Below are positions 1 through 55,000 of a stretch of DNA of 64,000 nt, piece after piece. The notes under the pieces are model-generated. The model did not search any database, had not been told where the DNA came from, and was given only the letters and a program-made list of their open reading frames with translations. Position numbers and translations under genes: made by a program. The first letter of the stretch is position 1, and each line of letters starts with the position of its first letter. The DNA is from Hyalella azteca (Eukaryota; Arthropoda; Malacostraca; Amphipoda; Hyalellidae): contig NW_025944691.1 in the NCBI RefSeq assembly GCF_000764305.2, positions 248,001 to 312,000 on the forward strand, written 5' to 3'.

Positions 1-1695
1 CGTTGCTATTGCGGTTGCCTTGCCCAACTTCATTGATACCACCCCGCGATCGCTGGACTACGACACAGAAGAGCGGATGCCAGGTTTCGAGTATCCCGAA
101 GATCTTTCGTTTGAGCCAGCGTACGAACAGGAGCTTGGAAGACTTCTAGGATTCTTCGCATATCTTAAGGTTAGTATTACTTTATAGATCAGTAGTATAC
201 CGGTCGGTATACCTTATGGATAGAGTAGTACTTCCATCGGCTTGAAGCACTTTCGTATGAATAGTGATCTACAGGACCAATGCTCTAGGTCTTACATGAA
301 TGATGTTCAATTGCTCAAGGCTTTATTATCAATATCAATCAATTATATTATTGAACGAATCTTTTTTTATGGAGTTTGCAAATGACTTTTGAATCAGATG
401 CTTATATTATATAGATAAGGCGATCTGGTCGAATTGAATGGGTTTAGAGGTAACACATATTAACATTTTTCATCTCGAGCAATTATGTAGTTAGATGTCT
501 TCGTCGATTTCTGAGTTCTGTAATAAAACTATAGATAGCCGGGCTATTTTTACGTACAAACATGGAATATATACTTATATGTCAGTAGTTCATCAGCCTA
601 TGATAAATAAACAGGATAAATATAGAGAACGGATTGAAAAAATCAATCAACGATGCAATTAAACAATCTATAAAATTCAAAACAGTCAAAAGTGCGTTTT
701 TCAGAAGACCTGTCGAATTTTGTCTTCGAAATGTAATGCATGCTTGAGCATCCAACAGAAATCGGCCACCAAGCAAGAGTGCTTTTGGTTCTTCAAATTT
801 TAAGCTAATTTTAATTTTAATTTTTTTTAATTTTAAGCTTTTAATAATTTTAATTTTTTAATTCATCGGCTGCAGTTGCCGATGGTGGAGTGTCAAGAGA
901 GGATAGTCTGTGAAATGGCGGCCGAGCCTGAGACCTATTCTCCTCTCTCTGTGCTTGTACTGAAGGAACTCAGGTTAGTAGCGATTTGAACATGAAAAAT
1001 TTCGTGTATTATGCAAGAAATCTTTAACAGCTTTTATCCAGGATGATATCCAATTTCTGATCACAATCTTAAATCATCTCATGCAATTGAAAATGAATAA
1101 TTATATGATTATTATATTAATTTCTTACGTGTCTGTAAATTTAATTGTAGTCTGTATAGGCTGCAATATACCAGCTTGATAATTCTAGCAATAACGCCCA
1201 TTGGAGAGCCCGGCAGTTATTTCAATCGTAATTTGACCATTAAATTTTACTAAAGATTCATTCATCGGTTAGGTTACGTTAGGTTAGGGTTTTTTGGCTA
1301 GGTAAAACTAATGTAAGATTGCTTTAAACACTAATGATACACACAGGAAAAGGCCACAATTGGGGGATTGCTGTGTGTAGTAGGAAATGTGTGGCAGGAA
1401 GAAGAAGAGAAAAAAAGAAAAAAATGAAAAAAAGCATAGCGGCTGATCTGGTTAAATCAAGTTACTCTAAAGCATTTCATGTGCCCGCAGACAAACCCAC
1501 GGCCTCGTCAAACCGTCGCACGAGTCGTTGATGTGGAGGTACGTAGCGGCCACTGCCCGCGGTCACGTCTACGGCACCGAGACTTGCGTCAAACATTACG
1601 GGAAATGCGAGATGTCCGCGCGGCAACGCCTCAACATGGTTGTCTTGAAATTGTACCAGTATTACGCTGCTATGCTTAAAATTAAGTTACTTTGA
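1..1695 (+). CDS. DM4_12-like secreted protein, gene A (5' partial)
   Basis: Three visible exons: 1-169 (5' part beyond the window), 876-973 and 1491-1695 (TGA at 1693-1695). Introns are GT-AG (donors gttagt at 170 and 974; acceptors cag ending 875 and 1490), phases 0 and 2. Exon 1-169 reads ALPNFIDTTPRSL then FEYPEDLSFEPAYEQELGRL. The next exon has C-x5-C-E (CQERIVCE). The last has Y-x3-T-x-C-x4-G-x-C (VYGTETCVKHYGKC). The C-x5-C-E pair followed by a C-x3-Y/H-x2-C pair resembles the DM4/DM12 domain of secreted arthropod proteins of unknown function. Exons 98 and 205 nt match genes B and C exactly, and the missing part of the 185-nt exon would be 16 nt. The family call is by motif only; the gene structure is firm. 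No function is assigned. Confidence 0.78.
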
Positions 1696-2055
1696 ACGAC
1701 CTCTTTGACCTTGATATTTTTCAGCACTTCGCTGCTATGCTTAAAATTAAGTTACTCTGAACGACCTCTTTGACCTTGATATTTTTCAGCACTTCGCTGC
1801 TATGCTTAAAATTAAGTTACTTTGAACGACCGCTTTGACCTTGATATTTTTAGCACTTCGCTTCTATGTTCAAAATTAAGCTACTCTGAATAACCCATTT
1901 AACCCTTGAGAGTGCTCCAGCACTTCGCTTCTATGCTCAAATTAAGCTACTTTTTATAACCCCTTTAACCCTTAAAAGTGTTCCAGCACTTTGCATCTAA
2001 TGTACGTTCAAATCTAGGCTACTTTGAATGGCGTCTCTCACCCTTGTCAGACAGC
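1660..2055 (+). repeat. 65-bp minisatellite carrying the 3' end of gene A's last exon
   Basis: About six units, starting near 1661, 1724, 1789, 1853, 1921 and 1987. The first unit is the true end of the coding sequence (AAMLKIKLL then stop); later units repeat this tail with progressive decay. Each unit also ends in a pyrimidine-rich stretch closing with tttcag or tccag. The array lies in the presumed 3' UTR. Confidence 0.9.
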
Positions 2056-52000: not shown

Positions 52001-55000
52001 GCGGGCAACAACTGGGCCAAAGGGCACTACACGGAGGGCGCCGAGCTGGTGGATAACGTCGTGGACGTGACCCGCAAGGAGGTCGAGGGCTGCGACTGCC
52101 TTCAGGGCTTCCAGCTCACGCACTCCCTGGGGGGCGGCACGGGCTCCGGCATGGGTACTCTGCTCATCTCGAAGATCAGGGAGGAATATCCCGACCGAAT
52201 CATGAGTACTTTCTCCGTAGTACCAAGCCCAAAGGTAATCAACTGTTATTTATTATTATATGTGATTGATTTATGAGTACTTTCTCTGTAGTACTGAGCC
52301 CAAAGGTAACAATTGTTATCATTTAATCACTTACTTTTTATGATTGATTTAATAACCTTTTTGTATTTTTTTCATTTATTCTAAATGGCTCACTTCTTGT
52401 AAACACCTGCGAAGCAGTCCTTCAAATTTATGAACTATCTTCTGTAAAAATTTACATGTGAAAAAACTATTACGTAAACCTATTCTAGTTATATCGGCTG
52501 AGATCTTCGTACAATCTTGAATAATGTGCAGATTTCCTCGTCCATGCTTCCTTGTCATGTGGTATACCTTATCAAATGACATATCTAATCGAATATTATT
52601 ACTTGATCCAATGTTTATACCTCATCCATTGTCATACTTGAGCAAATGTTATAACTGATCCTATATTATACCTGATCCTGTGTTATACCTGATCCTATAT
52701 TTTACCTGATACTATGTTATAACTGACCCTATATTATACCTGATCCTATGTTATACCTGATCCTCTGTCGTACCTGATCCTACGTTATACCTGATCCTAT
52801 GTTATACCTCATCCTATGTTATGCCTGATCCTGTGTTATACCTGATCCTATGTTATACCTGATCCTATGTTATACCTGATCCTATGTTATACCTGATTCT
52901 ATGTTATACCTAATCCTGAATTATCCCTGATCCAACGTTACACCTGCTTCAATGTCACACATCAACTAAATAATATAACATTTAACCATGCACCACGTAT
53001 CTCGTCTTTCAGGTATCGGACACAGTCGTAGAACCCTACAACGCAACGCTGTCCATCCACCAGCTGGTCGAGAACACCGACGCCACATATTTCATCGACA
53101 ACGAAGCCCTCTACGACATCTGCACCAACACCCTGCAGCTGCACACACCAACTTACGGCGACCTCAACCATCTTGTGTCCCTTGCCATGTCCGGCATCAC
53201 GACATGTTTGCGGTTCCCGGGACAACTGAACGCCGACCTGCGCAAGCTGGCCGTCAACATGGTGCCCTTCCCCAGGCTTCATTTCTTCATGCCGGGCTTT
53301 GCGCCGCTCACCGCCAGAGGGTAAGATGGGTGCTCTTAGTTCACGTAATATTAGTAAGGAATGTAATAGTAAATGAAATTTAATATTATTGTAATAGTAC
53401 AATAGAATAGTAATTGTAATAGTACAATATAATAAGAAAAGCTGGAGCTGTCAGTTTACGTAATATCAGTAAGGATAGTAATTACTGAAATGTAATAGTA
53501 AGTGAAATTTAATATTATTGTAACAGTACAACATAATAGTAATTGTAATAGTACAATATAATAGTAACTGATATGTCATAGTAAAATGTAATAGCAACAC
53601 CAAAACTATACTATTACTCACTCACTTTTATGTCGATTGTAGCTGGTTATAGCAAAGTTTCTTGTCATAAAATATAACTTGCAAATCTTGGATTTGCAAA
53701 CCTTTCACTGTTTGTTGTAATGAATAAACCAATGAATCTAAGCTTTCACATTTATTCACTTAAAAAGGTAAAATTTATTCCACATTTAAGTTCTGAGGTT
53801 TTTAACAAATTTAGCACTTATATTAATGTACACACTAACCAAATTGAAAATCTGGAATAAATATATTCTGCTACCACTGATAAAGCATTGCTGTCGAATT
53901 AGAAAGGCCGCAGTGATCAATCATGTAACAAAAAATATAACTCAGTACTCACTGCAGTGAGTGACAGAGAGCGCATTTTCTCGTCGACGAAAACACTGAC
54001 GGACAGACAGACAGACGGACATGACGAGCACAATAGTGCATTTTTGCCATAAATGAGGAAAATGCGCTTAAAATATTAATTCGAACTGTATAATATATTG
54101 ACTAAGCCTAACTTGAACAAACTTGAAAACTTTATCCAGGTCGCAGAAGTACAGCACGCATACGGTCCAGGAGCTCACAGAGCAGATCTTCCAGCCCAAG
54201 AACATGATGGCTGCGTGTAACCCCCACAAGGGCCGCTACCTTACCGTGGCTGTCGTGTTCAGAGGCAGGATGTCCATGAAGGACGTTGATGAACAGCTCT
54301 TCAAAGTCCAAAACAAGAACTCGTCCTACTTCGTCGAGTGGATCCCGAACAATGTGAAGACTGCGGTGTGTGACATCTCTCCTCGCGGCATGAAGATGGC
54401 GGCCACTTTCATTGGAAACTCTACAGCCATTCAGGAACTTTTCAACGTGAGATGCCTGTATTCTAGAATCAAATCCTATTAATCAATTCATCTTACAGAA
54501 ATAACTCACCAGCTTCTACTTTTTAATTCAGTGATAAAATACAAGAACGGGCCTGTTTCTTCTAACAATTGATGAGCTAAAAGTAACTTAGTGATCCTCA
54601 TTAATTCAGTATTATCCTCATTAATTCGAATCGGTGTTTTGTATAAGCGTATTTATGATCCAGTAAAAATGAACTAGTTTAGCACGCACGCCAGTTTGTT
54701 GGCAGAACCTTTGACTTTTCTTCCACCTATAAGGCGTAATTTTTCAAGTTTATTCAACTTATCGGCAGCAAACTTGCCGGGTCTGTTCAAGGTTTCGCTC
54801 CATCTCGTGGTGACTCCTGCCCCTATGTTAATACTTTACCGTTTGCTTAAATAAAGAAAATTTTTAATTGTTAGAGTGGGAAATATTGAAGTTGTAGATA
54901 TTTTCCTCAAAAATAAAGACGAAAAAATTTAATTTTCTTCGTTAGAAAATTCAATTGAGGCTACCGACCTCTTCTTAACTCATGCATCACACGCACGTCT

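Follow-up and report, generated by a model that had tools for sequence, protein, structure and literature searches.

Tandem Arrays Spanning Splice Junctions and Stop Codons in Genes of the Amphipod Hyalella azteca

Genes and arrays of the window

The window, the whole stretch of DNA analysed here, comprises 64,000 nucleotides (C4024:248001-312000) of the 519-Mb genome of Hyalella azteca. It holds three genes of a small secreted protein family (genes A, B, and C), a secretin-family G-protein-coupled receptor (GPCR) gene, and a beta-tubulin gene. These genes carry tandem arrays whose repeated unit combines coding bases with an adjoining splice junction or stop codon. Arrays were called with Tandem Repeats Finder (TRF), and the DNA was then read and compared with exon models. 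A sequence-only reading of the window had listed eleven arrays of this kind in three unrelated gene families. All eleven have a basis in the TRF calls, the reading, or the exon models, nine of them plainly and two weakly, and Pfam and protein matches bear out the three families when genes A to C are counted as one.

The protein joined from the exons of gene B is 100% identical to a 206-amino-acid H. azteca protein, LOC108670949, in a protein search that returned 27 proteins and placed relatives in another amphipod, in decapods, and in other crustaceans. Genes A, B, and C are paralogs of a DM4/DM12-like family. The Pfam family DM4_12 matched gene B below threshold (E 0.23) and the related protein P0014 above the cut-off; the Pfam scan gave no match for gene C or for P0003. 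The complete protein of gene A is P0004, and a fourth paralog, gene D (LOC108670944), lies outside the window. Three intron positions are common to A, B, and C as read, and in D intron 1 alone was read. The GPCR protein, joined from ten exons, matches PF00002 (E 6.8e-36), and the tubulin exons of the window match PF00091.

Gene B lies on the minus strand. At the end of its exon 1 (10249..10381; exon model and protein match), TRF reported a donor array of 29.5 copies of a 25 base-pair (bp) unit, TCACACTAG|GTGAGTAACGCCTTCA (9521..10259). The last coding exon, exon 4 (6832..7036; its joined protein is LOC108670949), runs into a stop-end array of 114 bp x10 in which coding end, stop codon, and 3' untranslated region (UTR) are repeated together (5753..6938; TRF), and four C-terminal copies give separate matches to the protein of a paralog. 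Two other TRF arrays lie close to exons placed by the exon model. An array of 65 bp x4 (9076..9343) lies about 30 bp from the acceptor of exon 2 (8862..9046), adjacent to it and not bridging, and an array of 8 bp x14.5 (8021..8140) begins 2 bp into the intron at the donor of exon 3 (8143..8240) and holds no exon bases. Beside the 8-bp array, a fragment resembling gene B exon 2 was seen by eye on the minus strand of intron 3 (7950-8020), about 900 bp from its source.

Gene C is also on the minus strand. Its exon 1 (21616..21751; reading and exon model), with the donor GTGGGT, ends in a TRF array of 44 bp x16.5 (20911..21640), where a GT stands near the donor position in 13 of the 15 later copies. 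A sub-array of 15 bp x8.9 on the intron side (20795..20927; TRF) resembles the end of exon 1 by eye. Exon 4 (17505..17709; reading and exon model) has TRF arrays at both ends, an acceptor array of 170 bp x4.9 (17635..18471) and a stop-end array of 88 bp x5-6 with coding end, stop codon, and 3' UTR (16987..17554). The exon model places exon 3 at 18982..19079 and exon 2 at 19736..19920. The claimed array at the exon-2 acceptor is one of the two weak cases, consisting of 65 bp x3.6 of degenerate copies of the acceptor region 260 bp from the exon (20180..20410; TRF and reading).

On the plus strand, the last exon of gene A (1491..1695; reading and exon model) ends in a stop codon, and a TRF array of 65 bp x5 repeats its last codons, the stop, and 3' UTR (1665..1991). 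The arrays that had been described as exon ends in A, B, and C do cover the coding end, but the edge in question is a stop codon with 3' UTR and not a splice site. At the exon-1 donor of gene A, reading revealed about four decayed copies of a 24-25-bp unit that is similar to that of gene B; TRF did not report them. The exon-1 donor of gene D, which was examined after the repeated exon-1 donors of A, B, and C had been noticed, carries an array of 25 bp x19.5.

In the GPCR gene (minus strand), the exon at 31538..31715, exon 7 of the sequence-only reading (reading, exon model, PF00002), has a TRF donor array of 18 bp x14.4 with the unit GTGTCTGGG|GTACGTGCT (31283..31542). Just upstream of the hormone-receptor exons, a 33-bp repeat lies inside a 365-codon open reading frame (35819-35938, minus strand); should this frame be an exon, the repeat would be coding.

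The beta-tubulin gene (plus strand) has three repeated edges at exons placed by reading and exon model. TRF found an array of 84 bp x2.2 (49787..49971) at the donor of exon 2 (49733..49841) and about 6.7 copies of 68-80 bp (51500..52037) at the acceptor of exon 4 (51990..52234). The donor region of exon 4 (52202..52310), the second weak case, amounts to two copies seen by eye and absent from the TRF list. Upstream of this gene, an array of 38 bp x33 with an acceptor-like unit (TTTTACTGCAG; 40388-41740) ends beside a GC-rich stretch, by eye a possible non-coding exon. Tubulin intron 1 contains two copies of a roughly 260-bp segment, about 1.3 kb apart (45240-45500 and 46505-46770; by eye).

Beyond the window, genes for myosin, tubulin, and kinesin also have exon-edge arrays, and the donor is repeated in tandem in at least a dozen of the genes read.

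Donor copies and recurrence among paralogs

Protein evidence was used to ask which copy of a repeated donor is spliced. At the exon 1/2 junction, LG|FLL reads through without interruption in all ten aligned proteins (10 of the 27 search returns, including three of this genome), and use of the exon-proximal donor is also consistent with the NCBI proteins of B and D. As judged from these sequences, the conserved protein would arise from the first donor only. The later copies nevertheless include many credible donors. In gene B, 22 of the 29 later copies have a GT and 7 have none, and 17/29 score at least as high as the real donor. In gene D, 13 of the 19 later copies score at least as high as the first; a GT stands within 3 bp of the expected place in 18/19, a count that includes shifted GTs in disrupted copies, and three exon-adjoining copies have no GT at the donor position. 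Because so many later copies score as high, donor strength alone is unlikely to decide the choice in B and D, and position or exon context would have to count. Among the 16 donor arrays scored, 13 have at least one later copy as strong as the first, with the value for gene C unreliable because the position used for its first donor was wrong by one base.

A repeated exon-1 donor is present in all four paralogs read (A to D), with 29.5 copies in B, 19.5 in D, and about 4 in A, as counted in a single haplotype. The 24-25-bp unit is common to A, B, and D, and the unit of gene C differs (44 bp). The 25-bp arrays of B and D are about 75% identical, and a single BLAST alignment between the two (70.5%) extended beyond the array ends. 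When the post-array stretches of intron 1 of B and D were compared alone, no similarity was detected (local score 23 vs. 23.8 ± 2.4 for shuffled sequence). Introns 2 and 3 were also compared among A, B, and C. Intron 3 of A and B scored above every one of 60 shuffles (35 against a maximum of 33), and the other five of the six comparisons did not. Most simply, the 25-bp array would predate the duplications that gave rise to A, B, and D, conversion between neighbours being the alternative. Counting the paralogs as independent events was rejected, since the unit shared by A, B, and D means one origin. Strict selection for each donor copy is unlikely because exon-adjoining copies of D and 7/29 copies of B lack the GT.

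Array placement compared with chance

The placement test drew on 98 introns, and 75 of these belong to genes outside the window (myosin, tubulin, and kinesin genes and a single GPCR gene). The first intron set had 50 predictions, of which 4 were excluded with a splice score under −4; the second had 12, with 1 excluded and 1 (L060) read by hand; and the third had 22, of which 6 fell below the cut-off. Two of these six (L071 and L073) were read by hand and retained since their arrays were visible, which is a bias, and the acceptor of L073 is uncertain. Exon matches that could not be paired with neighbours yielded no intron. None of the statistics includes the arrays recognised by eye at donors in L014 and L022 and at an acceptor in L027, the donors of genes A and D, the exon-2 acceptor of gene C, or the tubulin exon-4 donor with its two copies.

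Arrays cover 24% of the window (TRF, period 10 or more), and 6 of its 47 splice junctions lie inside a TRF array. Over the 98 introns, arrays make up 28% of the intron interior and contain 24 of 196 junctions (14 donors and 10 acceptors). By raw coverage, junctions fall in arrays less often than the intron interior does. Coding exons are seldom in arrays, which hold 4.6% of the exon bases matched by hidden Markov models at 17 myosin and tubulin loci. Raw coverage was rejected as a null because arrays grow by insertion, which inflates their coverage, and an array begun inside an intron cannot reach over the exon edge. Instead, each array was collapsed to one unit and placed at random on its intron, and we asked how often a junction would be spanned.

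Under this null, with an exon overlap of at least 4 bp, 13 of 75 arrays spanned a donor against 5.69 expected (p = 0.0025), and 10 of 75 spanned an acceptor against the same expectation (p = 0.048). Removing two hand-read introns left 12 of 72 donor arrays (5.47 expected, p = 0.0053) and 9 acceptor arrays (p = 0.085). At an overlap of 8 bp, 11 donor arrays were counted against 5.08 (p = 0.0085), 10 against 4.89 without the hand-read introns (p = 0.018), and 8 against 3.86 outside the window (p = 0.029). Acceptor arrays outside the window numbered 8 of 45 at the 4-bp overlap (p = 0.052). Donor-spanning arrays moderately exceed the insertion-corrected expectation, at about twice its value, and the acceptor excess is borderline. 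Array edges therefore do lie nearer to exon edges than random placement predicts in the case of donors, a comparison that the sequence-only reading had proposed, and only marginally so for acceptors. Its suggestion that duplications away from exon edges are lost did not hold, as 50 of the 75 intronic arrays touch neither edge and the intron interior is 28% array. Within the window, 3 of 4 stop codons (all three in the paralogs) and 0 of 3 start codons lie in arrays, a tiny sample that fits a filter tolerating repeated stops but not repeated starts.

The excess at donors is associated with copy number. Of the 17 arrays with at least 8 copies, 8 begin at or before a donor against 0.93 expected (p = 9e-7), and outside the window the count is 5 of 9 against 0.53. 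Requiring an overlap of 4 bp leaves 6/17 (3/9 outside the window) and one of 8 bp leaves 4/17 (2/9). Arrays under 8 copies show no clear donor excess, with 7 of 58 touching a donor against 5.4 expected. Growth, rather than initiation, looks donor-linked. The proposal that some process initiates duplication at exon edges is unneeded for the low-copy arrays, but high-copy arrays are over-represented at donors. Overall, the sequence-only interpretation is partly supported.

Base composition accounts for some of this pattern. Mean GC (guanine plus cytosine) content is 49% in donor arrays and 30% in internal intronic arrays, and a higher GC content goes with a higher copy number even among arrays away from placed edges (rho 0.23, p = 0.0015, n = 188). 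The growth of donor units is explained in part by the GC that they take from the exon. Donor arrays are also more homogeneous, with a median TRF match of 89 vs. 83.5 for internal arrays (p = 0.022), pointing to recent growth or homogenisation and not to age. Long persistence as the source of high copy number was dropped, as this homogeneity does not suggest older donor arrays. Units shorter than 28 bp were found in 6 of 15 arrays at donors and 0 of 10 at acceptors, a difference that is suggestive only.

Origin of the arrays and known counterparts

We consider it fairly probable, though well short of assured, that the arrays reflect random tandem duplication, a filter by which the first copy wins, and preferential growth of GC-rich units that contain a donor. 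Tandem duplications would accumulate throughout non-coding DNA, and some units would happen to span a splice junction or stop codon, forming so-called mirage minisatellites. Duplication of a donor or stop would be harmless, as the first copy met by splicing or translation would be the original and the rest would pass into the intron or 3' UTR. A duplication inside an exon would be lost. One spanning an acceptor may be tolerated if functional signals remain in the last copy, and loss is expected where a start codon is spanned, since the last copy would have to serve. Donor-containing units would reach high copy number more often, partly through their GC-rich and probably recombinogenic exon share.

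Several results weigh against this account. In three of the 16 scored donor arrays (L047, L048, and L049), every later copy is weaker than the first, so strength could decide there. The donor excess outside the window is modest, at 9 of 45 against 4.29 expected (p = 0.019) for the 4-bp overlap and 8 of 42 against 4.07 (p = 0.038) without the two hand-read introns; at the 8-bp overlap without those introns it shrinks to 7 against 3.67 (p = 0.06). Of the 27 strongly scoring splice edges that stayed unpaired, 9 were donors, two of them in arrays, and 18 were acceptors, none of them in an array; the 17 kinesin introns contributed one donor array alone, from a hand-read intron. The copy-number cut-offs were picked after the data had been seen, with 5, 8, and 10 all computed. 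In addition, GC is not the whole cause of growth: at least 8 copies were reached by 8 of 15 donor arrays and by 14 of 61 non-edge arrays with a GC content of at least 0.42 (Fisher p = 0.028). GC alone as the driver was rejected on the residual left after this matching.

Some of these points favour a base rate alone, in which some splice sites fall in arrays simply because these make up a quarter of the non-coding DNA, with no anchoring at exon edges. The p of 0.06 agrees with it, as do the low-copy arrays, which match expectation, and the raw coverage figures, both in the 98 introns and in the window. We nonetheless regard a pure base rate as unlikely, because the collapsed null gives more than the expected number of donor arrays, high-copy arrays are strongly biased toward donors, and the exon-1 donor is repeated in all four paralogs, though these represent at most two origins.

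A mutational hot spot at donors, where an R-loop, a paused polymerase, or U1 at the 5' splice site would start or drive duplication, would explain the many array starts from −55 to +25 around donors, a donor excess greater than that at acceptors, and the homogeneity of donor arrays, which recent growth would give. Enrichment at donors is not clear among the arrays under 8 copies, which stand closer to fresh duplications, and many high-copy starts would be expected just inside the intron, where three of 17 were found (+13 to +25). This explanation appears improbable.

Selection for repeated donors was considered as well. Here, extra U1-binding sites would raise splicing or expression, and the arrays would be maintained and expanded. 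The donor repeat shared by A, B, and D beside an otherwise unalignable intron 1 (B and D) is consistent with it, as is the bias of high copy numbers toward donors, and conservation over 14 arrays is slightly higher in the donor core columns (0.92) than elsewhere in the unit (0.87). Several arrays have no better-conserved core, however (gene C being mis-registered by a base in this comparison), the GT is missing from the later B copies and exon-adjoining D copies noted above, and gene A is down to about four decayed copies, all of which make such selection doubtful. It seems similarly questionable that repeated 5' splice sites form a long-lived and widespread gene component, in which the donor drives unit copy number and arrays are kept across gene duplications for a role in splicing or expression. 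An assembly artefact is very improbable: one array pair in the window does join at an N (38183), but copies differ by about 10% in donor arrays, paralog D had a donor array when inspected afterwards, and the NCBI proteins agree with the models of B and D.

The arrays have a counterpart in amphioxus. Two reports describe mirage minisatellites in Adh3, the globins BflGb6 and BflGb9, troponin C, and PGBD5, and consider them possibly general in cephalochordates (PMC3087553, PMC3902484). The H. azteca arrays resemble those described there in structure and in the use of both boundaries, and may share the reported tolerance. The tandem unit likewise holds exon and intron sequence of one junction, with splice signals repeated in many copies. 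The host differs, being an amphipod arthropod and not a cephalochordate, but the host is a circumstance of discovery rather than a structural criterion. The present arrays also reach 29.5 donor copies, against the 3 and 6 units cited for the amphioxus globins, and cover stop codons, and H. azteca adds a chance test over 98 introns and a junction repeated in four paralogs. No crustacean report of mirages was found in the literature searched. The kind of array is already known from amphioxus; new, as far as that literature goes, are the arthropod host, copy numbers near 30, the stop-codon arrays, the chance test, and the recurrence among paralogs. A phenomenon that these reports place in cephalochordates is also present in an arthropod.

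The Rogers model, as cited in PMC3087553, derives intron gain from tandem duplication of AG|GT sites. As far as that citation describes it, the starting point is the same, a tandem duplication with splice signals, whereas the H. azteca copies remain in the old intron or 3' UTR. No new intron was noticed among the genes read, although no dedicated search was made. Should splicing use the first copy, the choice would have to rest on position or exon context, which makes 5' splice-site choice testable in natural alleles and provides raw material from which introns could be gained and exons extended. A human polymorphism offers a smaller example: CBS 844ins68 is a 68-bp duplication of an intron-exon junction, with a duplicated acceptor, as seen here, that is spliced normally, but it has two copies only.

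Minor observations were made on other repeats. A myosin gene (L044, C3480:70000-79999) has one exon in five tandem copies (profile positions 376-436), an arrangement that we take to be like that of muscle myosins with alternative exons. At L047 (C4758:15400-21000), tandem array makes up 55% of a 5.6-kb stretch in a 22-kb contig. Within the window, five places (2400-2550, 23140-23270, 33030-33170, 43680-43850, and 53940-54065) carry a dispersed repeat, AAAATGCGCTCTCTGTCACTCACTGCAGTGAGTACTGAGTTATATT with a TGTCCGTC tract, in one orientation or the other; it was recognised by eye and is perhaps a mobile element.

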